IMG/VR virus record: IMGVR_UViG_3300033048_000147
Location: 1 to 23,158 of that record
Origin: a virus
Direction: 5' to 3' (one strand)
DNA: 23,158 nucleotides
In this document: positions 3,854 to 22,655 of the stretch, in pieces
Numbering within the stretch: the first letter of the stretch is position 1
Layout: each line of letters opens with the position of its first letter
Notes under the pieces: generated by a model
Told to the model about the DNA's origin: nothing
Seen by the model: only the letters and a program-made list of their open reading frames with translations
The model's database searches: none
Program-made: the position numbers and the translations under genes

Positions 3854-6205
3854 TCAGGTGAACGCCAGACCGCCGTTGCGGGCGGCGTCGGCGATCTTCT
3901 TGGTGTGCTGTGCGGTCTCTTCGGTGGCCTTGGCGGTGCGTTCGTCGGCATCGCTTGAAGATGCCAGCCCCTGAATCGCCGCCGCGTTGAAGGTGCCGCG
4001 GACGGTTGCGCCGGAGCGGGCAAGTGTGCTGCCGAGCCCAGCGAGTTGGCTTTGGATACGGGCGACGAGACCCTCGGCAGAATCGGGTGCTCCAACATCG
4101 GGACTGGCGCTCTCCGCGTCCTTGCGCTTCTTGGCGGCCTCAGCAATCGCCTCGTCGAGTTGGCGGCGTGCTTCATCGAGCGCCTTCTGCGTCTCTTCGA
4201 TCTTGGTGTTGGTGCGATCGTCGAGCGCCTTCTGGGCCTCGTCGAACTGCCGCCCGATCTCGGCGAGTGTGGCCTCGTTCTCCTCGGCTGACCGGTCGCG
4301 TTGGCGTTGGCGGCCTTGCTCACGCTGGGCGAGTGCCTGCTGGGCCTGCGATTCGATTTCGGCAAGGCGTGATTCGAGTTGCTGATCGATGCCCTGCTTG
4401 GTGGCCTTGACATCGAGCGACGAATCGAACAGCCCTTGAATCTCCAGCATCCGCTTGGCCACAAACGAGGTCGCGGACTCCCAGATCTTCTTGAAGCCGC
4501 TGGAGAACCGCGTCCAGGTCTTGGAGAGGAAGGCCGTCGTTTCGATCCACGCAACCTCGATGGCGTGGAAACCGATCTGGGCTGCGGCCACAGCACCGAA
4601 CCACATCTTCTGCGCGGTGCCGATGAAGAACCGTTTGGCTTCAAGCCATGCCCCGTTGATCGCTGCGACACCCTTCTGCCAGATGAGCTTGAGCGAGAGC
4701 CAGAGAATCTGGGCGGCAAGCGCAACATCACCAGCGGCGAGGGCATCGGCCATGCCACCGACGACTTTCGTCACGGTGGCTTTGAGTTTGTTGAACTGCT
4801 CGCCCAGCCAGTTGAGTGCATCGGCCCCGGCCCCGGTTGTCGTCAGGATGGCGACGCCGACACCGATCACCGCGACAGCAACCAGTCCGATCGGCGAGAG
4901 CAACGCGGCCAGCACCGTACCCATGATTCCGATCGCTGCACCGATGCCGGTAATGATCGCAGCCAGCGAGCCGAACACCGCCCCGATGGCGACGATCGCC
5001 GCACCCGCAACGGCCAACGCGATACCAATCCCGATCACGACAGCCGTCAGTTTGAGGATCGTGACGACGAGTTGGCGGTTTTGGTTGATGAGGTTGGTGA
5101 TCCAGCCTGCGATCTTGGTGATCGCATCGGCCGCCAGGCGGACCGGCTTCTGGATTGCCTCGCCGATGGCGATTGCGATGCCTTCGACGGCGGAGAGGAG
5201 TTTGCGGAACGAGCCACCGATGCCCGCGTCCATCTCCTCGGCCGTCTTGACCGCGAGCCCCGCGGAGTTCTTGATCTGGTTCTGCAACGCATCGAACGCC
5301 TCGGCGGATGACGCGAGTTTGAGGGCGGCCGCCTGCCCACGCCCGAACAAGGTCTCGAAGATCGACAATCGCTGGGCTGAGCCGAGGCCTTTGGTCGCCT
5401 TGGACAGGTCGTTGAGGATGTCAGCGAGCGGGCGGAGGTTGCCCTGTGCATCGACGGCCTCGACACCGATCTTGCGGAGCTGGGTTTGATTCGATTCTTT
5501 GGAGAGGTTCTTGTACGCGCGGGCGAGTGCGTTGCCAGCGAGTGATCCCTTGATGCCGTTGTTGGCCAGCACCGCGATGGCAGCGGCGGTCTCCTCGATG
5601 CTCGCGCCCGCTTCGACCGCGATCGGCGCGACGGGTTTGAGTGCTTCAGCCAGGTCGTCGAGCGTCTGAGCGCTGCCGTTGGCTGTCGCGGTGAGGACAT
5701 CCGTCACGCGGACCATCTGCTCAACGGGCAGCGCGAACCCGCGCAAGGCCGCCCCGGCGATCTCGGTGGCTCGGGGGAGTTCGGTACTCGTCGCGCGGGC
5801 CAAGGCCAACACCGCCTCGGTGCTCGACAGGATCGCTTCGGGCTTGAAGCCTGCTCGACCGAGTTCGGTCATCGCCTCGGCGACTTGGCCAGCCGTGAAC
5901 GATGTCGTTCGCCCGAGGCGCTTTGCTTCTTCACGCAGCGATTGGAACTGCTTCTCGGTCGCGCCAGTCACGGCACGAACCGCACGCATCCGGTCATCGA
6001 AGCCCGCGAAGACCCGCGTCGAGATCGCAAAGCCCGCAGCGAACCCGGTGCCGATGCCGGTCAGGCGTGCGCCGATGCGTTGCACCGACGAGCCGAACGC
6101 TTTGAGCCGTTTCTGGGCGCGATTGAGCCCACGCACCAGCTTGTTGTCGTTTGCGTAGAGCTCGATGTAGGCTGCGCCTGCTCGGATGCCGCGTGCGGAT
6201 GCCAT
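3854..6205 (-). CDS. Phage tail tape measure protein (TP901 type)
   Basis: This 783-residue protein sets tail length during assembly and sits inside the tail tube. Residues about 60-350 carry the TP901-type core (FDDRMRAVRAVTGATEKQFQSL, TSFTAGQVAEAMTELGRAGF and ANNGIKGSLAGNALARAY are typical). Residues about 378-455 are a long run of hydrophobic, Gly/Ala/Ile/Val-rich helices. Residues about 600-710 are a charged, heptad-like coiled coil rich in Glu, Gln and Arg. At the usual 0.15 nm per residue the tail would be of order 115 nm, which fits a siphovirus; this is an estimate from family knowledge. ATG at 6205 has a GGAG Shine-Dalgarno 8 nt upstream. It follows the tail chaperone and lipoprotein genes in the canonical order. 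Confidence 0.95.
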   Translation of the reverse strand: MASARGIRAGAAYIELYANDNKLVRGLNRAQKRLKAFGSSVQRIGARLTGIGTGFAAGFAISTRVFAGFDDRMRAVRAVTGATEKQFQSLREEAKRLGRTTSFTAGQVAEAMTELGRAGFKPEAILSSTEAVLALARATSTELPRATEIAGAALRGFALPVEQMVRVTDVLTATANGSAQTLDDLAEALKPVAPIAVEAGASIEETAAAIAVLANNGIKGSLAGNALARAYKNLSKESNQTQLRKIGVEAVDAQGNLRPLADILNDLSKATKGLGSAQRLSIFETLFGRGQAAALKLASSAEAFDALQNQIKNSAGLAVKTAEEMDAGIGGSFRKLLSAVEGIAIAIGEAIQKPVRLAADAITKIAGWITNLINQNRQLVVTILKLTAVVIGIGIALAVAGAAIVAIGAVFGSLAAIITGIGAAIGIMGTVLAALLSPIGLVAVAVIGVGVAILTTTGAGADALNWLGEQFNKLKATVTKVVGGMADALAAGDVALAAQILWLSLKLIWQKGVAAINGAWLEAKRFFIGTAQKMWFGAVAAAQIGFHAIEVAWIETTAFLSKTWTRFSSGFKKIWESATSFVAKRMLEIQGLFDSSLDVKATKQGIDQQLESRLAEIESQAQQALAQREQGRQRQRDRSAEENEATLAEIGRQFDEAQKALDDRTNTKIEETQKALDEARRQLDEAIAEAAKKRKDAESASPDVGAPDSAEGLVARIQSQLAGLGSTLARSGATVRGTFNAAAIQGLASSSDADERTAKATEETAQHTKKIADAARNGGLAFT

Positions 6206-6217
6206 GCATTTCTCCGA

Positions 6218-6682
6218 TCAGGTGGTGAGTGTGCCTGAAGTCGGTGGCGAGACACGCCCTTCCTTCATCCCCTTGTTGAACGAGGACTCCTTTTCCTTGC
6301 GGAGGCGACCGGTGCCGAGGAAGAGGCCGACGAGTCCGGTCATCGCGGGCAGTGCCGGGCCGAGCATGGGGATGCCTGCGACAGTCGGGCCGACCTGGTC
6401 GAGGGCGGAAAGGGTCAACTGGCTGAAGATGCCTCGGATTTCGCCCGCCCGTTCAATGTTGGACTTCCATTGCGATCCGACGCGTTGGGTTTCCTCGAAC
6501 CACGCGCGGTACTCAGCCTCGGCTTCGTTGAGCGAAGTTGTCGCGGGGAGTCCGGTTGACTGTTGCACGCGGTTGGGTGTCTTGACGCGCACGAGGTCGC
6601 CAAGATCGAACCCGGCGCACGCACCCAGCGAGAGGGTGATCATCACGAGTGCGAAGATGTAGGCAATATGTCGGTGTTGCAT
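6218..6682 (-). CDS. Small phage lipoprotein with C-terminal hydrophobic segment
   Basis: This 154-residue protein has an N-terminal lipoprotein signal: MQHRHIAYIFALVMITLSLGAC, with lipobox LGAC and Cys22 as the lipidation site. A second hydrophobic stretch rich in Gly, Pro and Leu (VAGIPMLGPALPAMTGLVGLF) lies near residues 110-131. I chose ATG 6682 because it has a near-perfect GGAGGAACC Shine-Dalgarno; the same frame is open further upstream (to 6919), but that part reads as the chaperone gene in another frame. It lies 12 nt before the tape measure gene. A lysis (spanin or holin-like) or envelope role is possible; no specific family was recognised. Confidence 0.75.
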   Translation of the reverse strand: MQHRHIAYIFALVMITLSLGACAGFDLGDLVRVKTPNRVQQSTGLPATTSLNEAEAEYRAWFEETQRVGSQWKSNIERAGEIRGIFSQLTLSALDQVGPTVAGIPMLGPALPAMTGLVGLFLGTGRLRKEKESSFNKGMKEGRVSPPTSGTLTT

Positions 6683-6945
6683 GGTTCCTCCTTGATGCTG
6701 CGGGCTTGTGTTTCCTTGGCTTCTTCCTGATGCCTGATGCCTATTGCCTGATGCCTTCCCTTGATGAAGATGTCCTTGAGGATGCTCACATCGACCTTCT
6801 GCTTTGGTACTTGCATCTGGCTGAACGGGTCGAAGTCGGTTGGCCGGAACGCCCGGTGCTTCTTCGGGTCGCGGTTGGCGTTGGCGATCAGGGCCATGAG
6901 CGAGCTGGTGCGTGCCCACTCGTCGCGTTGCCTGGCCTCGGCCAT
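6643..6945 (-). CDS. Tail assembly chaperone, downstream (-1) frame
   Basis: From ATG 6945 this frame gives 100 residues. The conserved protein evidently starts earlier: the frame is open back to 7251, and residues read from about 7020 (WRFIWRLAGIVGVDPAALTL) run straight into RELVTMAEARQRDEWARTSS and ANANRDPKKHRAFRPTDFDPF. That is the typical pattern of phage tail-assembly chaperone 'T-frame' proteins. There is no ATG, GTG or TTG in this frame between 7251 and 6945, so the N-terminal part can only be reached by ribosomal frameshifting from the upstream chaperone gene (-1 relative to it), as in lambda G/GT. The C-terminal 25 or so residues overlap the lipoprotein start and contain a heptamer repeat, so the true end of the conserved part may be near LKDIFIKGR. 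Confidence 0.7.
   Translation of the reverse strand: MAEARQRDEWARTSSLMALIANANRDPKKHRAFRPTDFDPFSQMQVPKQKVDVSILKDIFIKGRHQAIGIRHQEEAKETQARSIKEEPCNTDILPTSSHS
6726..6755. repeat. Heptanucleotide tandem repeat (CCTGATG, four units)
   Basis: On the plus strand the sequence reads CCTGATG, CCTGATG, CCTATTG, CCTGATG, then CC: three exact heptamers and one variant in tandem. It lies in the tail-chaperone 3' end, about 40-70 nt upstream of the lipoprotein start codon. Because seven is not a multiple of three, a change in copy number would change the reading frame. Confidence 0.85.
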
Positions 6946-7020
6946 CGTGACCAGTTCACGCAGTGTCAGGGCGGCGGGATCGACGCCGACGATCCCGGCG
7001 AGTCGCCAGATGAATCGCCA
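6946..7020 (-). other. Start-less conserved extension of the tail chaperone -1 frame
   Basis: In the -1 frame relative to the upstream chaperone gene, this stretch encodes WRFIWRLAGIVGVDPAALTL and then RELVT, which looks conserved and joins in frame to the 100-residue product. The upstream gene ends inside it (TGA at 6966-6968). I saw no canonical XXXYYYZ slippery heptamer in the last 120 nt of the upstream gene. The proline-codon run (CCG CCG CCC) before its stop is one weak slip candidate. Confidence 0.6.
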
Positions 7021-7463
7021 GCATTCGGCACTGTTTGCATCAGTGCTTCCTCCGCGATCCGATCCAGTTCGCCGCTCTCGATCCGTTGCTCGACCAGATC
7101 CCTGGCCTTGTCCATCACCCGGCGGGTCGTTTCCAGGACTTTCTTGAAATTCGCCCGGTCCCTCGGGCTCGGGGAAAAAGACACGAGTTCCTCGAGCAGC
7201 GCTGTCGTTGCATGCTCGATCGCGTCGCCCGCCATCGCCCGGCCGAAGTCTTCATCGCTCACGCTTTGAGCGTCGGCTTCGGGCTTGCAGACGGCGTACA
7301 CGATGTCGCACAGGAGCACCGGGTCGGTGATGAGCCGGTCGATCAGTTTGCCGCCGACGACTTCGAGCAAGTCCACATCGAGCAGGCTTCGCACGCGCTT
7401 GATCGCATCGACCGTGATGCTCACGGTCCATGTGCGTCCCGCGTTGTCCTTGAATGTTCTCAT
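6966..7463 (-). CDS. Tail assembly chaperone, upstream ('G-like') frame
   Basis: This 165-residue protein is taken to start at MRTFKDNAGRTWTVSITVD. ATG 7463 has GGAGGC 3 nt upstream; the open frame further upstream (to 7691) reads antisense-like Arg-rich sequence overlapping the tail tube gene and is rejected. The body is helical (AIKRVRSLLDVDLLEVVGGK, RDRANFKKVLETTRRVMDKA) and the C-terminal tail is Ser/Gly/Pro-rich. It lies between tail tube and tape measure, where the lambda G/T-type chaperone pair always sits, and the downstream frame looks like the T partner. Its role would be to keep the tape measure and tube subunits competent during tail assembly. The family call rests on position plus the partner frame. 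Confidence 0.85.
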   Translation of the reverse strand: MRTFKDNAGRTWTVSITVDAIKRVRSLLDVDLLEVVGGKLIDRLITDPVLLCDIVYAVCKPEADAQSVSDEDFGRAMAGDAIEHATTALLEELVSFSPSPRDRANFKKVLETTRRVMDKARDLVEQRIESGELDRIAEEALMQTVPNAGDSSGDSPGSSASIPPP

Positions 7464-7474
7464 GCTGCCTCCAA

Positions 7475-7897
7475 TCAGATCCATGCGGGCGCGGTCCCGG
7501 CGTAGGTGACCTTCGCCGTCACCGAGACGGTGAGTGCTTCTTCGAGTTGCTCGTTGCGGCTGAAGTTGGTGATCGAGAAGTCGGCTTCGAGACCGGAACC
7601 GGCCGCACCGTCGAGCACCTGCATGCCGATCTCCACATTGTTGAAGAACGCGTCCTTGATCGCTGTGAACCCCGCGTCGGCGGTGTCCCACACCATCTCG
7701 AACTCGACGCTCGCCTCCTTGAGCGTGCCGACCGTCGCCCGCCAGCCCGCGTTGGCGCGGGTCGTGATGTCGGCCTCGCCAGTCTCAAGGCTGAGCGTCA
7801 CATCCTTGACATTGGAGAGTTCGGTCCAGGAACCGGCTCCGCCGACGCCTCCGGTCTTGTAGTTGAGCACGGCGTCCATGCCGAGTTTGATGGCCAT
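7475..7897 (-). CDS. Major tail tube protein
   Basis: This 140-residue protein has the pattern of the TP901-1-type tail tube family: MAIKLGMDAVLNYKTGG at the start, LSNVKDVTLSLETGEADITT (a beta-strand and loop typical of tube proteins) and AGWRATVGTLKEASVEFEM in the middle, and beta-strand LEEALTVSVTAKVTYAG at the end. Length fits the family. ATG 7897 follows a GGAGATC Shine-Dalgarno. It polymerises to form the tail tube and is followed, 11 nt later, by the tail chaperone gene. A tube without any visible sheath gene nearby supports a siphovirus-type tail. Confidence 0.92.
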   Translation of the reverse strand: MAIKLGMDAVLNYKTGGVGGAGSWTELSNVKDVTLSLETGEADITTRANAGWRATVGTLKEASVEFEMVWDTADAGFTAIKDAFFNNVEIGMQVLDGAAGSGLEADFSITNFSRNEQLEEALTVSVTAKVTYAGTAPAWI

Positions 7898-7923: not shown

Positions 7924-8328
7924 TCATTTCACCGAACCGGCCCAGTGCTTGGGCAGGCGGTCTTTGGTCTTCGTGAGTGCTGGTCCCATGAACGGCCGCT
8001 TTGGGTATCGCTGTCGCTTGTAGCGCCCGCCGAACTCATGAGCTCGCGCGGACTGACCGACGATGCGATGGTCCGGCCCGATGACGACGCGCTGCCTGTT
8101 CTTCTCCACCGCAAACCGGATCGCACTGCGGAGCTGTCCACGCCGGGTCTTGGGCGGTGTGCCGGGTTCGGCGGGATTCGGACTCTTGCGGATGCTCCGC
8201 TTGGCCGTGAGCCGGATCGTCGCGCCCGCATGGCCAAGACTCTCGATGTTCGCCCGACGCACTTTGCGGAGCACCTTGGGGATGTCCGAGCGGGTCCTTA
8301 CCTGGAGTCCAATGGCAGCACTGGTCAT
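7924..8328 (-). CDS. HK97 gp10-like head-tail / minor tail protein
   Basis: This basic 134-residue protein has features of the HK97 gp10 / virion-morphogenesis family: an N-terminal helix, SIRKSPNPAEPGTPPKTRRGQLRSA in the middle, GQSARAHEFGGRY (the conserved 'A-x-x-H-E-F-G' stretch) and YPKRPFMGPAL near the end. Members work at the head-tail junction or in early tail assembly. It overlaps the preceding gene by 4 nt (ATGA) and precedes the tail tube gene, the usual place. Confidence 0.85.
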   Translation of the reverse strand: MTSAAIGLQVRTRSDIPKVLRKVRRANIESLGHAGATIRLTAKRSIRKSPNPAEPGTPPKTRRGQLRSAIRFAVEKNRQRVVIGPDHRIVGQSARAHEFGGRYKRQRYPKRPFMGPALTKTKDRLPKHWAGSVK

Positions 8329-9429: not shown

Positions 9430-9768
9430 CTACTGGCTCATCCGAACACGGACGGTCGCGTCGTTATCCGTCGCGTCGGCGACGACTCGACCGAGCCCTT
9501 TGTTCGCGCCCGTTGCGTCGTCGGTCGTGGCCTGCCTCAGATCCGCGTCCCAATACACATCCGCACCCGCCGCGATCGCCTTGCCAAGACCGATCGCCTT
9601 GGGAAAGTCGAAGACCCCGACGACCGCCAGTGCGCCCAGTGTGTTCGCAAGGATGTCGAGCTTGGCGACGCCGACGAGTTCGCCCTGAACGACCACATCA
9701 CCCGCCGCGACATCGGCCGCGGGTGTGTAGTCGATCGAGTTGCCTTCATGGATATATGTTGCACTCAT
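9430..9768 (-). CDS. DUF2190 family capsid-associated protein
   Basis: This 112-residue protein begins MSATYIHEGNSIDYTPAADV, followed by AAGDVVVQGELVGVAK and GKAIAAGADVYWDADLRQAT, which match DUF2190 proteins encoded directly after phage major capsid genes (decoration or head-fibre proteins). I chose ATG 9768 because AGGAG lies 9 nt upstream and the start fits the family. An upstream in-frame ATG at 9834 would add 22 Gly/Gln-rich residues but lacks a good ribosome site. It lies about 80 nt after the capsid gene stop. Confidence 0.85.
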   Translation of the reverse strand: MSATYIHEGNSIDYTPAADVAAGDVVVQGELVGVAKLDILANTLGALAVVGVFDFPKAIGLGKAIAAGADVYWDADLRQATTDDATGANKGLGRVVADATDNDATVRVRMSQ

Positions 9769-9849
9769 TGCTTGTGGCTCCTGTTGATTGGGATCACCGC
9801 CGCCGGCTTGTCCGCCTCCGGGAATCTGTGACATAGTGTGTTCACCGCT

Positions 9850-11346
9850 TTAGGCCTCGCCCTTCATCTTTACGCCGCCGCGCGGCTCTTGAAGCGCGAC
9901 GCCGAAGTCGTGGTAGCCGCGCATCTGGATGCCCAGGTTGTTGAAGTCGGCGTCGGCGCTTTCAACCGTCGGCTGCTGCTGGCCGTTGAGGAACGCGACC
10001 TCGATCACGGGCATGTCGTTCGGATCGGCGAGCACATACCACGCCAGACTCGAAAAGCCCGTGTACTTCGGGTTGCTCAGATAGCTCGAACGCACCGGGC
10101 GGAACTTGCCCGCGTGCGGGTTGGCGACCGGGGTCTTCTTGGTCGAAGATGGGTCGCGCAGCTCGGTCGAGTTCATGATCTGCGTCGCTGGCACATAGAG
10201 CGCGTTGGGGACGAGCAGGATGACGGGTGCGACCGCCAGTGGATGGCCATCGGGGTCGGTCTGATCGAGGAAAAGCGTTTCGGCCTGTGTCAAGGCATCG
10301 ATACCCAAGGCCGTGCCGACGCCTTCTGCGTAGTTGTTGTTGCCCGCAATAAAGAACGCGGCGTTGTTGAGGAAGGCGCTCCAGAAGACCTCGTTGAGTT
10401 TGAGCGCACCGCCACGACCGAGTCGACGCGGGACAGCCGTCAGCGCATCGAGATCATCATTGATCAGATCGCGACGATCGATCCCGAACATGCGGCCGTA
10501 GGTCTTGGCCTGGTTCGTGTACGCCGTCTCTCCGACCGTGGCGTGTTTGAGTTCGCCACCCGGTGCGATTTCCTCGTAGACGAAGCCGCCGGTGAGCGAG
10601 TAACTGGAGACCTGCTTGAAGTCACGCACGGAGCGGATCGCAGCCAGTTCGCGCCAGGTCGATTCGACAGCCTCGAAGCCCGCGCGCAGGAACTTGTTGG
10701 CGACATTGCTCAGAATGCCGGGCAGGCTCATTGTGCTCAGTCCCGCTGCCTGCACATCGGCGAAGGCGAACTGGAGCAGTCCCTTGAGGTCGCTGCGTCC
10801 GTAGCCGCGATAGCCGTTGGCCTGCGCGAAGATGAGCAGCGTCTCACACAACCCGAGCCCATGGCGGTATTGCCGCTGGGCGACATCGAGCGTGCGCTCG
10901 GTGAACTGTGATTCGAGTGTCTCGGTGTCCAGACCACCAGCCACGCACATCGCCGCCTCGATGATCGATCCCTCGATCCGATCGCTCTGCGAGCGTGGCC
11001 CACCGATCCCCTCGTAACTGCGACCGAGCCGCATGACCTCGAGCTGGTACTTGTCGGGCTTCCATCCCGCCTCGAGCGCTGCGTGCGCCAGGCGACCGAG
11101 ATCATCAGCGAGTTCCGGGCGCTGCGTGAGCACCTCGGCCGTCATCGCCTGGATGCGCTGGCGTCGCTCCGACTCGGCCCGAGCCCGCGACGTGATCTGA
11201 TCAATCTCTGCCGCCGGGTCGCTTGCGGTGATGGTGCCGTTGCGCTGCGCCGGGGAGGGCTGACTCGCTTCGATGGTGGCGGCGTTGTTCTTCGATGTGT
11301 CATCGGTCATCGCCGCATCGTCATGGTTGTTCTGGGGGTCCGGCAT
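9850..11346 (-). CDS. Nested internal start: scaffold-capsid product
   Basis: Inside the protease-capsid gene, Met191 (ATG 11346, MPDPQNNHDD) is preceded by AGGAG with a 9-nt spacer, a much better site than chance. Initiation here would give a 498-residue protein holding only the scaffold-like and capsid parts. Phages that fuse protease and capsid need many more capsid than protease copies, so a nested start (as lambda C/Nu3 uses) would solve the ratio. This is predicted from the ribosome site and the domain boundary, which coincide. Confidence 0.6.
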   Translation of the reverse strand: MPDPQNNHDDAAMTDDTSKNNAATIEASQPSPAQRNGTITASDPAAEIDQITSRARAESERRQRIQAMTAEVLTQRPELADDLGRLAHAALEAGWKPDKYQLEVMRLGRSYEGIGGPRSQSDRIEGSIIEAAMCVAGGLDTETLESQFTERTLDVAQRQYRHGLGLCETLLIFAQANGYRGYGRSDLKGLLQFAFADVQAAGLSTMSLPGILSNVANKFLRAGFEAVESTWRELAAIRSVRDFKQVSSYSLTGGFVYEEIAPGGELKHATVGETAYTNQAKTYGRMFGIDRRDLINDDLDALTAVPRRLGRGGALKLNEVFWSAFLNNAAFFIAGNNNYAEGVGTALGIDALTQAETLFLDQTDPDGHPLAVAPVILLVPNALYVPATQIMNSTELRDPSSTKKTPVANPHAGKFRPVRSSYLSNPKYTGFSSLAWYVLADPNDMPVIEVAFLNGQQQPTVESADADFNNLGIQMRGYHDFGVALQEPRGGVKMKGEA

Positions 11347-11916
11347 CGTGTGATTCTCCTGCTGTTGCTGTGCGGCGATTCGGGCGCGGGTTTGCTGGTC
11401 CGCACCAAGATCGACGAAACTGATCTCGTTGAGTGTGGTCTTGTGGGCGATGTAGATCGGGCCTTTGAACTTTCGGCCGTTCACCGTCACCGATACATCG
11501 CGTTTGATGAACTCGAGTTCGTCGACCGATGCGCCGATCGAGGCTTGCCAGGGGAAGCCCTTCTTCCCGCTGGCCACGATCTCTTGGGCTGCGGGGGTGT
11601 CGCGAGACACGACACCCTCGGCGATGAGCTTGCCGTTTTCGATGGCGATCCGCTCGGTGTGCCCGACGCCCTCGAGCGCCGAGTGCTGGAAGCGAACCGG
11701 GCGCTGCTGGGCCGGGATCTTCAGGCCGTCGAGGTTGACCACAACCGGGTAGGCGAACCCGAGCGTTCGGATCGGACCGCCGGTGTAGGCGACCATCGAG
11801 AACTTCGGGAGCGCATCGGACCCGCCACCATCACCATCCGGGTGCGCGGCGGCTTCAATTGCGACCTCACAATCGATCGCCAGAATGTCAGGCGGCTTAT
11901 TGATCGTCTGGGTCAT
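9850..11916 (-). CDS. Prohead protease-major capsid protein fusion
   Basis: This 688-residue polyprotein combines an HK97-type prohead protease with the major capsid protein. Residues about 10-185 are the protease: RFQHSALEGVGHTE (75-88) holds the likely catalytic His, WQASIGA (123-129) the likely catalytic Ser126, and TTLNEISFVDLGAD (160-173) is the conserved C-terminal strand. Residues about 186-300 are polar and helical, Gln/Ala/Glu-rich, consistent with a scaffold (delta) domain. Residues about 310-688 are the capsid fold (GSIIEAAMCVAGGL, TYGRMFGIDRRDLINDDLDAL, PAVAPVILLVPNALYVP-like region). I chose ATG 11916 because AAAGGAAC lies upstream; it overlaps the portal gene by 20 nt. An internal start at 11346 probably makes the capsid protein alone. 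Confidence 0.92.
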   Translation of the reverse strand: MTQTINKPPDILAIDCEVAIEAAAHPDGDGGGSDALPKFSMVAYTGGPIRTLGFAYPVVVNLDGLKIPAQQRPVRFQHSALEGVGHTERIAIENGKLIAEGVVSRDTPAAQEIVASGKKGFPWQASIGASVDELEFIKRDVSVTVNGRKFKGPIYIAHKTTLNEISFVDLGADQQTRARIAAQQQQENHTMPDPQNNHDDAAMTDDTSKNNAATIEASQPSPAQRNGTITASDPAAEIDQITSRARAESERRQRIQAMTAEVLTQRPELADDLGRLAHAALEAGWKPDKYQLEVMRLGRSYEGIGGPRSQSDRIEGSIIEAAMCVAGGLDTETLESQFTERTLDVAQRQYRHGLGLCETLLIFAQANGYRGYGRSDLKGLLQFAFADVQAAGLSTMSLPGILSNVANKFLRAGFEAVESTWRELAAIRSVRDFKQVSSYSLTGGFVYEEIAPGGELKHATVGETAYTNQAKTYGRMFGIDRRDLINDDLDALTAVPRRLGRGGALKLNEVFWSAFLNNAAFFIAGNNNYAEGVGTALGIDALTQAETLFLDQTDPDGHPLAVAPVILLVPNALYVPATQIMNSTELRDPSSTKKTPVANPHAGKFRPVRSSYLSNPKYTGFSSLAWYVLADPNDMPVIEVAFLNGQQQPTVESADADFNNLGIQMRGYHDFGVALQEPRGGVKMKGEA
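11356..11360 (-). promoter_or_regulatory. Internal ribosome binding site (AGGAG) for nested capsid start
   Basis: AGGAG on the minus strand sits 9 nt before the in-frame ATG at 11346, exactly at the boundary between the protease domain and the polar scaffold-like region. It is imposed on codons for the Gln/Glu run before Met191. Confidence 0.6.
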
Positions 11917-13417
11917 CGTCTTGTTCCTTTGTGCCTGCGGGGACGGGAGCATCTGGGGCGTCTGCGGCGTCCGGGGGCTGAATGCCGAGCGTCTGCATCA
12001 ACTCGCGTTCCTTGGCGATCTGGCGCAGCTCGGCCTCCCAGTCGAGCCCCTGCTTGGCGTATTCGCGTGCAAGCGATGTCGTGCGACTGTCGAGCCGCGT
12101 GGACTGGGCGTTGGCTTCCTTGGCCGGGTCGACGTGCTCGGTCCCGTCCCAGAACCACTGGTGGGTGCGAACGGCATCGCGCAGCCGCATTGATTGCGGC
12201 AGCAGCCCCTCGACAAGAACAGCCTCGTCGAACCACGCGTGGAAGATGTGATCGAGCACGCAGCGTTCGATGTGCGCCTGCTCGATGCGGATGCTCTTGA
12301 AGTAGGCCTGGTGGTCAAGCCGACCGGAGGCGTAGTTGTACCCCGAGGAGTTGCCAGCCGCGACGTTGAACGGCATGTTCAGGCACCGGGCGATCTCGTT
12401 GAGAATCTCGCGCTTGAACTCGCCGTAGGTGGTAGAAGGCTGCTCGGCCTTCATCTGCGCCATCTTCCAGCCGCCGGGCATGGTCAGGAGCATCCGCTGT
12501 TCGAGTTCGATCGCATCCATCGGCTCGACGTCTTCCGCCTCGCCGTTGGCCGGTGCGTCCGTGTAGAGCACACCCGCGAAATCGGCCGCTGTCTCTGCGG
12601 CGCTGATCACGGCGAGTGTGAACCGGCGCAGTTGCGCAAACAATGGGAGCGCGGGTGTGATGTCGGGAATGCCACGACTCTGACCGGGCCGGTCGGCCCG
12701 GAAGTAGTGGATCATGACCTGCGCGGAGATGCGGTTGTACTCGAGGTTTGAGAACCATCGCAGATCGCCGGGATGTTGCTTGAGGACGTGGTACTCGGTC
12801 GGATTGCCGAAGTCGTCGAAGACGATGCCGTCGATCATGTGGGGGGCGCGAGGTGTGTGAGGGTTGTTGGTGCGGAGATCCGGCGTCGCGATCTGATCCG
12901 CCTCGATGAGACGGACATCGAGCTGGACTGGCGAGGCATGACTGGGATTGCGGGCCAGGAGCATGAACCCCTCGCCGGACTCGGCCCGCGCCATCCGCAT
13001 CGTGCGGAGTTTGGCGGCGAGCCCGATGGTCCGCGCCCAGTCGGCAAAGGCCATCTCGATGCGCCGATCCGCATCGGGATCACCGGTCAACATCTGGAGA
13101 CGCGGCCCCGTCCCGATGACATCGTTGGCGAGCGTCAGCACGATCCCGCGGGCGTAGCTGTTGTTGGCAACCTCGTAGCGGGCCCGGTTGCGCAGCACGC
13201 GCCGGACTTCGGGATTGGCGGCCGCGTCGGCGCTGAGACCATCGGCGTTCGCCCAATGGCGGCGGTTCCCATCCGTGGTCGCCGCCGCGTCGTACCGGGC
13301 TTGAAGAGGTCGCAGACTGACGACTGGATTCCGCACCCGCGCACCGTGCGCGACTCGTGTGTCATCGCTTCGGTGCGGTGTGTGCGTAGCCAGCGTGTTG
13401 ATCAGTCGCCTGAGCAT
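11897..13417 (-). CDS. Phage portal protein (lambda family)
   Basis: This 506-residue protein forms the dodecameric DNA gate at the capsid vertex. The pattern is that of lambda gpB-type portals: a basic N-terminus, RRVLRNRARYEVANNSYARG (a hallmark start), TLANDVIGTGPRLQML, FADWARTIGLAAKLRTMRMA, ESGEGFMLLARN, the VRLIEADQI strand, HYFRADRPGQSRGIPDITPA, and CLNMPFNVAAGNSSGYNYAS. The last residues are Asp/Gln-rich. ATG 13417 is preceded by a purine-rich GAGGGA. It lies between the small connector-like gene and the protease-capsid fusion, as expected. Confidence 0.95.
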   Translation of the reverse strand: MLRRLINTLATHTPHRSDDTRVAHGARVRNPVVSLRPLQARYDAAATTDGNRRHWANADGLSADAAANPEVRRVLRNRARYEVANNSYARGIVLTLANDVIGTGPRLQMLTGDPDADRRIEMAFADWARTIGLAAKLRTMRMARAESGEGFMLLARNPSHASPVQLDVRLIEADQIATPDLRTNNPHTPRAPHMIDGIVFDDFGNPTEYHVLKQHPGDLRWFSNLEYNRISAQVMIHYFRADRPGQSRGIPDITPALPLFAQLRRFTLAVISAAETAADFAGVLYTDAPANGEAEDVEPMDAIELEQRMLLTMPGGWKMAQMKAEQPSTTYGEFKREILNEIARCLNMPFNVAAGNSSGYNYASGRLDHQAYFKSIRIEQAHIERCVLDHIFHAWFDEAVLVEGLLPQSMRLRDAVRTHQWFWDGTEHVDPAKEANAQSTRLDSRTTSLAREYAKQGLDWEAELRQIAKERELMQTLGIQPPDAADAPDAPVPAGTKEQDDDPDDQ

Positions 13418-19973: not shown

Positions 19974-21110
19974 TCATCCCGCTTCTCCTCTCCTAGCCTC
20001 GACTTCGGTCGAGGCTTTCTCTCCGGCCTCAGCGTTTGCGGCCCCCGGAATCCGCTCGGCCTTCTTCCCCGCGAACTCCTCCCATCGCTGCACGATCACA
20101 TCGCAATACGCCGGATCGATTTCCATGAGGAACGCATGACGATCCGTCTGCTCGCAGGCGATGAGTGTCGAACCGCTCCCTCCGAAGAGGTCGAGGACAT
20201 TTTCATCCGGGCGTGATGAATACTGAATCGCGCGGACCGCTAGTTCGACGGGTTTCTCGGTGAGATGCACCATGCTTTGTGGATTAACCTTCTTCACATG
20301 CCAGAGATCGGTCGCGTTGTTGGGGCCGAAGAACTTGTGCCCGGCCCCCTCGCGCCAGCCATAGAAGCAGATCTCGAACGCGCCCATGAAATCTTTGCGC
20401 GTCAGCACCGGGTGCTGCTTGTCCCACACGATCCCCTGGCTGAAGTACAGCTCGCATGCCTTGAGCGGTGCCGGGTAGTTCCCGATGTTCGCGTACCCGC
20501 CCCAGATGTAGAACGAGCCTCCCGGCTTGAGGACTCGGCTGATGTTGCCGAACCACGCGAGGAGCATCTCGTCGAACGCTTCGTCCGTCATGAAGTCGTT
20601 TTCGAGTGGCCGATCCTTCGCCCGCATCTTCTTGTGCGTGGCCTTGGCCTTCTCTGGATGACGGGCCAGGTCGAACTTCTGGTGGTGCTTCTTCTCGGGT
20701 GCCGTGAAAGAAGAGTTGCCCGCCGCGATGGCGTTGTTGCTCCGAGGCTCGACCTTCACATTGTACGGCGGGTCAGTATTCACCATGTCGATGGTGTTCC
20801 CATCGAGCAACCGATCCAGATCATTCTCGCTCGATGAATCGCCGCACAGCAGACGATGATCGCCGAGCACCCACAGATCGCCGGGCTTGGTGATCGGTTC
20901 ATCCGGCGGCTCGGGAACATCGTCTGGATCGGTCAGCCCTTCCGTCACCCCGGCCTCACCGGCCATCAGGCTGGCAAGTTCGTCCTCATCAAAGCCAAGC
21001 AGCGACCAATCAATCCCCGCCTCCTGCAACTCGGCGATCTCGATCGGCAGCAGGTCCATGTCCCAGGTGGCCAACTCGCCGGTCTTGTTGTCCGCGATGC
21101 GGTACGCCCG
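19974..21110 (-). other. Methyltransferase half of the fusion
   Basis: This segment encodes residues 516-893. It carries the ParB-type linker (RIADNKTGELATWDMDLLPI), the acidic LTDPDDVPEPPDEPITKPGD lead-in, catalytic DPPY at 20763-20774, a recognition region, the SAM motif LDLFGGSGST (821-830) and an Ala/Glu-rich tail. A ParB/sulfiredoxin-like domain, usual upstream of this linker, is missing. Confidence 0.88.
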
Positions 21111-22655
21111 GATGCTCGTCGGGCGGAAGGTAACCGCGATGCTTCCGGCCTCCCCATCGTACTCAACCGTGGAGATCAGGAGGTTGAGGAGCCGGGCCTG
21201 CTCGCGTGGGATCAGGTTGGCCCAGAGTGTGTCGAAATCAGCGAACGCGGCTTCGGCTTCTGCTGGCGAGACCGTCTCATGCTCCAATGCAGCGATCCGC
21301 GTATCCAGTTCGGGGCGTCGCTGCTCGGCAGCGCTGATCCGTTCGTGCAGGTCTGCGACGCGAGCGGTGACATCGCTTGTCATGGCACCGTCCGCGACCA
21401 GACCCCGCAACTCCTTATCGTGACGAGCCGTTTCACGGCTGAGATCGTCGCGTTCCCTCGTCAGCGCAGCCAACTCCTCGGAAACCGTGACTTGTGATTC
21501 GGTGAGTACCCGGGCGAGGAGCGACTTGTCGGCTGCAAGCCCCCGTACCTCGTCCACCACCACACGCTCGATCTCTTGTGCGGGCAGCGTACCCGTCTGA
21601 CACGCGCTGCTGCCGCTCTTGATGGCGCGGATGCATCGGTAATAGCGATAGAACTTCCCCTTCCGCATGCCGCAGAATGTGTGCGTCATAGCACTGTCGC
21701 AGGTCTTGCACCGGAGGAGCCCGCGGAGCAAGGCCCCGTATTTGTTCCGCACTTCCACACCGCCGGTGCGGCCATTGTGCCTGAGTTGAGCCTGAACTGT
21801 GTCGAACAGTTCCAGATCGATGATTGCTTCGTGCTCGCCCTCGTAGATCTGGTCCTTGTGTTTGATCTTCCCGGTCAGGACCGGATTCGTCAGCAGCGTG
21901 TAAAGCGTCGCCCTGTCGAAGGGGCGTCCTCCGACCTTCTTGCCCTTCTTCGTGACACGCCGTTTGTTGACCCACCTGCGTCGTCCAAGTTCGCTCGCAA
22001 CGGGGAGCAGCGATCCTTTCTCGATGTACATCTGGAAGATCGTGCGGACGCGTGCGGCCTCCGTGGCGTTTATGACGAGCTTCGGGCTGCCGCCAGATCG
22101 ATCGACATCGTACCCCAGGACGGGCACGCCGCCCGCCCACTTCCCCTTGCGTTTCTGCGCCGCGATCTTGTCGCGGATGCGTTCGCCGATGATCTCCCGC
22201 TCGAACTGTGCGAAGGAGAGCAGGATGTTCAGCGTGAGGCGGCCCATCGAGTGGGTCGTGTTGAACTGCTGCGTGACGGACACAAACGAGACGCCGCGTT
22301 TTTCGAATGTCTCGAGGATCCGAGAGAAGTCCATCAAAGAACGGCTGAGGCGATCCACCTTGTAGACAACCACGCAGTCGATCTTGCCCTCCTCGATGTC
22401 GCGGAGCATGTGGTCAAGGGCGGGACGTTCCATGCTCCCGCCGGAGAAGCCGCCGTCGTTGTACTGCGTCGGGACCACGGTCCATCCCTCGGCCTTCTGG
22501 CTGGCGATGAACGCCTCGGCGCTTTCACGCTGGGCGTCGAGGGAGTTGAACTCCTGGTCGAGCCCTTCCTCGCTGGACTTCCGGGTGTAGATCGCGCACC
22601 GAACGGTCGGTGAGTCCAGCCCGTTGGTTTTCTCACTCTTGCGTCGGCCACTCAT
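19974..22655 (-). CDS. Serine recombinase-DNA adenine methyltransferase fusion
   Basis: This single 893-residue frame holds two complete enzymes. Residues 19-170 are the serine recombinase catalytic domain: YTRKSSEEG with Ser27 as nucleophile, DGGFSGGSMERPAL (67-80), and DRLSRS (101-106). Residues 175-300 are the recombinase DNA-binding domain. Residues 316-352 are the zinc ribbon (Cys316-x2-Cys319, Cys341, Cys352), and about 375-465 a coiled coil, as in large serine integrases. At residue 516 the recombinase ends and RIADNKTGELATWD begins, the linker normally following a ParB domain in ParB-methyltransferase proteins. Then PGDLWVLGDHRLLCGD (591-606), DPPY (628-631) and FGGSGST (824-830) give motif order IV before I: a beta-class, probably N6-adenine, methyltransferase. 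All catalytic residues are present. It overlaps DUF2924 by 4 nt. Likely roles are prophage integration/excision plus DNA methylation. Confidence 0.93.
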   Translation of the reverse strand: MSGRRKSEKTNGLDSPTVRCAIYTRKSSEEGLDQEFNSLDAQRESAEAFIASQKAEGWTVVPTQYNDGGFSGGSMERPALDHMLRDIEEGKIDCVVVYKVDRLSRSLMDFSRILETFEKRGVSFVSVTQQFNTTHSMGRLTLNILLSFAQFEREIIGERIRDKIAAQKRKGKWAGGVPVLGYDVDRSGGSPKLVINATEAARVRTIFQMYIEKGSLLPVASELGRRRWVNKRRVTKKGKKVGGRPFDRATLYTLLTNPVLTGKIKHKDQIYEGEHEAIIDLELFDTVQAQLRHNGRTGGVEVRNKYGALLRGLLRCKTCDSAMTHTFCGMRKGKFYRYYRCIRAIKSGSSACQTGTLPAQEIERVVVDEVRGLAADKSLLARVLTESQVTVSEELAALTRERDDLSRETARHDKELRGLVADGAMTSDVTARVADLHERISAAEQRRPELDTRIAALEHETVSPAEAEAAFADFDTLWANLIPREQARLLNLLISTVEYDGEAGSIAVTFRPTSIRAYRIADNKTGELATWDMDLLPIEIAELQEAGIDWSLLGFDEDELASLMAGEAGVTEGLTDPDDVPEPPDEPITKPGDLWVLGDHRLLCGDSSSENDLDRLLDGNTIDMVNTDPPYNVKVEPRSNNAIAAGNSSFTAPEKKHHQKFDLARHPEKAKATHKKMRAKDRPLENDFMTDEAFDEMLLAWFGNISRVLKPGGSFYIWGGYANIGNYPAPLKACELYFSQGIVWDKQHPVLTRKDFMGAFEICFYGWREGAGHKFFGPNNATDLWHVKKVNPQSMVHLTEKPVELAVRAIQYSSRPDENVLDLFGGSGSTLIACEQTDRHAFLMEIDPAYCDVIVQRWEEFAGKKAERIPGAANAEAGEKASTEVEARRGEAG
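19995..20016 (+). terminator. cUUCGg hairpin terminator of the plus-strand island
   Basis: AGCCTCGAC-TTCG-GTCGAGGCT is a perfect 9-bp stem with the very stable cUUCGg tetraloop, followed by TTCTCT on the plus strand. It lies 27 nt after the stop of the last plus-strand gene and within codons for the C-terminal tail of the recombinase-methyltransferase. On the minus strand no T-run follows, so it should act only on plus-strand transcripts. Confidence 0.8.
21111..22655 (-). other. Serine recombinase half of the fusion
   Basis: This segment encodes residues 1-515: resolvase-type catalytic domain with Ser27, recombinase domain, zinc ribbon, coiled coil and the terminal strand SIAVTFRP (505-512) that usually ends such integrases. 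It is a full-length large serine recombinase by content, neither truncated nor frameshifted. Confidence 0.9.

Follow-up and report, generated by a model that had tools for sequence, protein, structure and literature searches.

Comparative evidence for a lambda-type G/GT tail-assembly chaperone pair, very probably made by −1 ribosomal frameshifting at U_UUU_UCC, in a group of mostly planctomycete phages

Results

The tail region and its start-less T frame

How is a conserved tail-protein segment translated when the reading frame encoding it has no start codon ahead of it? This question is raised by the tail region of an IMG/VR virus record, the whole of which (23,158 bases) is called the window here. 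All tail genes considered lie on the minus strand and are transcribed in the order neck or tail-completion protein, tail tube, G, T, small ORF and tape measure:

7924-8328, minus strand: neck or tail-completion protein
7475-7897, minus strand: tail tube (major tail) protein (PF06199, 1.1e-10; phrog_1407, 4e-13)
6966-7463, minus strand: G, zero-frame tail-assembly chaperone of 165 aa, assigned from its relatives and its position between tail tube and tape measure
6643-7179, minus strand, after G in transcription order: T frame between slip site and stop codon (6645-6643), 178 aa (linker beginning FFPEPEG, then the T domain), with 0 stops between slip and motif in 199 loci
6823-7020, minus strand: conserved T domain (WRFIWRLAGIVGVDPAALTLRELVTMAEA...DFDPF), resembling lambda gpT (Pfam Phage_tail_T, PF06223)
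6682-6218, minus strand: small ORF between the T frame and the tape measure gene
3854-6205, minus strand: tape measure protein (phrog_1533, 3e-91; PF10145, 3.5e-51)

The −1 frame relative to G is open from 7251 to a stop at 6645-6643, its first ATG, GTG or TTG is the ATG at 6945, and the conserved T motif begins upstream of this codon, at W 7020. A preliminary description of this DNA had given the same opening and first start codon and a conserved segment from about 7020, all of which was borne out when the frame was checked to its stop; it had also expected a frameshift from G into T, which is now strongly supported by the step in −1-frame stops and the conservation of the slip codon in 199 loci described below. 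The missing T start is partly trivial, because an NTG codon in the −1 frame requires that G have a Cys or Trp codon there. What lies far beyond chance is that the −1 frame stays open once past the slip, not the absence of a start.

The T domain of the window matches PF06223 with an E value of 0.0007 and 20.4 bits, which is under the gathering score of 25.9, and 44 of 53 family members match at E<0.01, the best at 1.4e-5; a sequence comparison of the T frame with solved structures gave no match. For G, sequence searches gave no convincing Pfam or PHROG family, no PDB match and no known chaperone family. Tail G proteins diverge widely. The C-terminal extension of the T frame contains two copies of GGCATCAGG (6726-6755), which among ten close relatives occurs as one copy in a single locus (L009); T seems to have been lengthened here by a small inserted repeat.

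Several other ORFs on the minus strand of the window were also annotated. An 893-aa ORF (19974-22655) combines a large serine recombinase part (residues 13-506; phrog_95, 1e-120) with a DNA methyltransferase part that has ParB-like matches (residues 511-884; phrog_498, 4e-100), and is a candidate integrase–methyltransferase fusion. A 700-aa ORF (9850-11952) has its match in a family that unites head protease and major head protein (phrog_4523, 1.6e-78), with a decoration protein following at 9430-9834. A 447-aa ORF at the end of the tail region (51-1394) shows matches to phage glucosyltransferase families (phrog_2835, 2.7e-11).

Relatives of the G/T pair

Searches with the G and T queries gave 160 loci on viral contigs (IMG/VR), and a family profile gave 80 from genomes. 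With identical copies and a few loci whose frames were not cleanly paired set aside, 127 distinct viral loci were left, and further frame checks gave the 199 distinct loci, from viral and genome collections together, that were used for counts. Neither frame found a match among 50,697 records of deposited phages. Where relatives come from named genomes, these are for the most part Planctomycetota MAGs, with many Phycisphaerales; the few with other labels may be binning errors. The window belongs to a phage of uncultured planctomycete bacteria. A Nevskiales-labelled contig carries two related loci (L169 and L192), the second of which has a G frame broken just past the slip (115 aa) and is possibly a decayed prophage.

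T stands at −1 to G in each of the 127 distinct viral relatives whose pair is intact, and across these no conserved T start was found upstream of the motif. A T frame without a start could also be read as an assembly error or a decaying gene, a reading to which we give practically no weight: the same −1 break recurs, with the T domain conserved, in 199 distinct loci that were assembled independently, which refutes it.

Location of the probable slip by −1-frame stops

Among 94 G genes with more than about 45% identity to that of the window, stops in the −1 frame occur here and there as far as codon 95; none lie between codon 101 and the gene end, whereas +1-frame stops stay common over that part. 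Over the 199 loci, the stretch between slip codon and T motif holds 0 −1-frame stops in 9,101 codons, against about 192-195 expected (synonymous redraw of G codons, 200 runs, mean 195 and minimum 165), while 382 +1-frame stops were observed in the same stretch. The change is a sharp step: the last five codons before the slip contain 41 −1 stops against 32 expected, and the successive five-codon bins after it contain 0 each, against 9, 26, 9, 15, 28, 25, 26 and 32 expected. A dereplicated set of 130 gave the same picture (0 against 118 expected). In nine viral loci, and likewise in L212, L233 and L236, the last −1 stop directly abuts a heptamer at this place, and a peak of synonymous conservation in G falls on codons 95-101. 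The linker that follows, of about 50 T-frame residues, is not conserved in sequence, yet is never interrupted by stops. The following elements of the window surround this position:

7188-7193, minus strand: Shine–Dalgarno-like GAGGAA, its GAGGA ending 9 nt before the heptamer, a possible stimulator
7173-7179, minus strand: slip site U_UUU_UCC, zero-frame codons TCT TTT TCC (G codons 95-97), located by the U_UUU_UUC codon of relatives and by the end of the −1 stops
7153-7168, minus strand: possible stem-loop GCCCG-AGGGAC-CGGGC, 4 nt past the slip, weak in the window, where another fold was found

This puts the slip some 150 nt ahead of the conserved T motif, at the codon to which the alignment of relatives, proposed earlier as a way to find it, pointed. 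The preliminary description had instead placed it within 6940-7100, so that the reporter fragment it suggested, of the same extent, would miss the slip. A slip close to the T motif (7100-6940) would bring it nearer to the G stop, as is typical of phage slip sites, which lie on average 26 and 36 nt from the zero-frame stop in two phage data sets (PMC10885494). However, that stretch is variable with indels and holds no shared slippery sequence, and a slip there is contradicted by the stop step, since it does not explain why −1 stops are lacking at and after codon 97; we regard it as very unlikely. G-runs just before the T motif in three loci (L002, L004 and L012) were rejected as slip sites, being unshared and within the region of indels.

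As little credit is due to translation of T from its own start without frameshifting, by the ATG at 6945, a non-AUG start or reinitiation. The Met of ATG 6945 is conserved in 116 of the 119 relatives where the motif was found, but a start there would delete the conserved WRxxWxxAGxxGVDPxxLTLREL segment and has no convincing Shine–Dalgarno sequence, and an own start gives no reason for some 50 unconserved codons without −1 stops beginning exactly at the heptamer. Relatives with their own T start, which the preliminary description had named as a possible counter-indication, were sought and are isolated cases, none of them clade-wide. One is L078, where the heptamer is lost (C_UUC_UUC at the usual codon), T is open and a T-frame ATG has GGAG upstream, making a switch to separate T translation possible in this locus. 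The other candidate, L130, was set aside because it keeps U_UUU_UUC at the usual place, so that its ATG is not needed. The Shine–Dalgarno-like GGAGGA before the ATG at 7040 was likewise discarded as a T start, this ATG being in the G frame.

Sequence of the putative slip site across the family

The forms found at the slip codon in the 199 loci are U_UUU_UUC in 102, U_UUC_UGC in 51 and U_UUU_UCC in 38 (the window included), with U_UUU_UGC and U_UUC_UCC in three each and U_UUU_UCA and U_UUU_UUU in one each. A canonical X_XXY_YYZ heptamer is therefore present in 103 relatives (102 TTTTTTC and one TTTTTTT), whereas the TTTTTCC of the window is not strictly of this type in a zero-frame test. The earlier statement that no canonical heptamer is visible was hence literally true of the window, although it passed over U_UUU_UCC at 7179-7173 and the canonical U_UUU_UUC of 102 relatives; its suspicion of an unusual signal holds in a mild sense, U_UUU_UCC being a decayed version of U_UUU_UUC, the family form.

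Either U_UUU_UUC or a decayed form of it occupies the same codon in all viral relatives except L078 and L123, where the site search in the viral set required UUU, failed by these two loci only, and the position in the genome set came from protein alignment, the collection search having already fixed the amino-acid pattern there. L123 has neither the heptamer nor a T start, and its T frame is open; L078 and L123 may be real switches, users of other shift sites or sequence errors. The codon before the slip ends in T in every locus, whereas elsewhere in these G genes the shares are 27% for GAT among Asp codons, 12% for GGT among Gly codons, 3% for TCT among Ser codons and 20% for TTT among Phe codons.

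The stop step holds within the non-canonical classes as well, with 0 −1 stops after the slip against 39 expected for U_UUU_UCC, the class of the window, and 0 against 55 expected for U_UUC_UGC. This bears on transcriptional rather than ribosomal slippage, for which the runs of T5-T6 in the U_UUU_UCC and U_UUU_UUC forms might speak. Such runs are short, transcriptional realignment being linked to Tn with n>8 in the GeneTack work (PMC3711429), and the 51 loci of the U_UUC_UGC class retain TTTC alone with the T frame still open; slippage of the polymerase is thus a highly improbable source of T.

In a tree built on the G N-terminus without the slip region, loci with U_UUU_UUC occur throughout. 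They include nearly all of the most distant relatives, and nearly all other forms fall into one weakly supported group of 47 rows (46 with other forms), which includes the window. The clade of the window has U_UUU_UCC and its sister group U_UUC_UGC; owing to the few alignment columns, the branch order and the direction of change are no more than suggestive.

Flanking signals

A dnaX-type stimulated −1 site has a Shine–Dalgarno-like element about 10 nt upstream and a stem-loop 5-9 nt downstream, and both flanks were examined for such signals. GAGGA stands at 9-nt spacing in 172 of the 199 loci, a frequency most of which is explained by Glu-Glu codons and which is not clearly beyond codon choice. 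The 63 nt downstream of the slip in the window fold with a z of −1.25 relative to dinucleotide shuffles. Compared with synonymous shuffles, folding is moderately stronger in two classes, with a mean z at the best offset of −0.9 for U_UUU_UUC and −1.35 for U_UUC_UGC, and it is near 0 for the U_UUU_UCC class of the window. CCGAGCCCGAGG stands directly after the slip in 31 of 38 U_UUU_UCC and 46 of 51 U_UUC_UGC loci but in few of the canonical ones; it may act as a stimulator, or dual coding alone may account for it.

Discussion

The gpT-like T frame and its place between the tail tube and tape measure genes point to a lambda-type G/GT programmed −1 frameshift, and we consider it very probable that this tail-assembly chaperone pair is made by such ribosomal frameshifting at U_UUU_UCC. 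From the frame relation, the open −1 frame from the slip codon, the conservation of the slippery codons, the gpT-like domain and the gene order, all computed here, we infer the slippage itself and its rate, the behaviour of the tRNAs and a role in tail assembly. Most ribosomes would translate G, and a minority would slip back by one base at 7179-7173. The P-site tRNA-Phe would re-pair perfectly (UUU to UUU), as it would in relatives with UUC in the P site, re-pairing as UUU, whereas the tRNA-Ser in the A site of the window (UCC to UUC) would need a G:U pair in the middle, a kind of re-pairing that the PRFect authors suggested for GGGGGAA (PMC10885494). With UUC in the A site, the canonical form, both tRNAs would re-pair, and at U_UUC_UGC the P-site tRNA alone, as at minimal sites of the Z_ZZN kind. 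Shifted ribosomes would cross the linker into the gpT-like domain, giving the following product:

6643-7463, minus strand: predicted GT fusion, 273 aa, 7463 to 7173 joined to 7173 to 6646 (base 7173 read twice), stop at 6645-6643

By analogy with lambda, GT may connect the tape measure and tail tube proteins. G residues 1-96 are common to G and the predicted GT, and residues 97-165 are private to G. The distance from the slip to the G stop is 207 nt in the window (family median 198, range 138-270), and over this overlap conservation is higher in the G frame just past the slip and slightly higher in the T frame over the T motif.

The distribution of site forms allows a more tentative proposal, which we hold with somewhat less than even confidence: in one planctomycete-phage lineage the site may have drifted from U_UUU_UUC through U_UUU_UCC to U_UUC_UGC, where the P-site Phe tRNA alone would re-pair, with frameshifting kept, perhaps through a newly fixed downstream CCGAGCCCGAGG (with a longer GCCCGAGG/CCTCGGGC stem in some lineage members), and with G and GT, from a site about 200 nt upstream of the G stop, serving as isoforms with alternative C-termini. 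With shift sites that range naturally from textbook forms to ones hardly recognisable, all at the same codon of the same gene, what lets a weak slip site work becomes directly testable with reporters. The comparative analysis of −1 stops, in turn, locates a site that would escape a heptamer scan around the zero-frame stop.

The system is a new family member of a mechanism already well known, its two-frame overlap being unusually long and its slip sites forming a decaying series, and it can be compared with systems described before. It shares a U-run slip with P2 E/E+E' (T6G) and the Smp131-like T7G/T7C sites, U_UUU_UUC being of the same kind, but those belong to other proteins of another gene family, and the run of the window is U5 followed by CC (PMC3931495). 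U_UUU_UCC fits the 'fivetwo' motif of PRFect (XXXXXYY), which in the portion of that source used here is reported as GGGGGAA only, without a U5C2 example (PMC10885494). The P-site-only re-pairing that U_UUC_UGC would need is known from Z_ZZN tetranucleotide −1 sites (A_AAG, IS1222), whereas the use of U_UUC in this phage group is argued from its conservation (PMC5009743). With the G/GT system of phage lambda as summarized in PMC5009743 (Levin 1993; Xu 2004, 2013) the window would share a −1 frameshift in the tail operon and G followed by GT; the genes lie, as in lambda, between the major tail protein and the tape measure, and the T domain resembles the Phage_tail_T type. Lambda-style frameshifting would then extend to a large number of related phages and prophages, chiefly planctomycete ones. 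In contrast to lambda, which shifts near the 3' end of G, the window would shift 207 nt before the G stop, so that G would have a private C-terminus of 69 residues and G and GT would differ by alternative C-termini, rather than as a short and an extended form.
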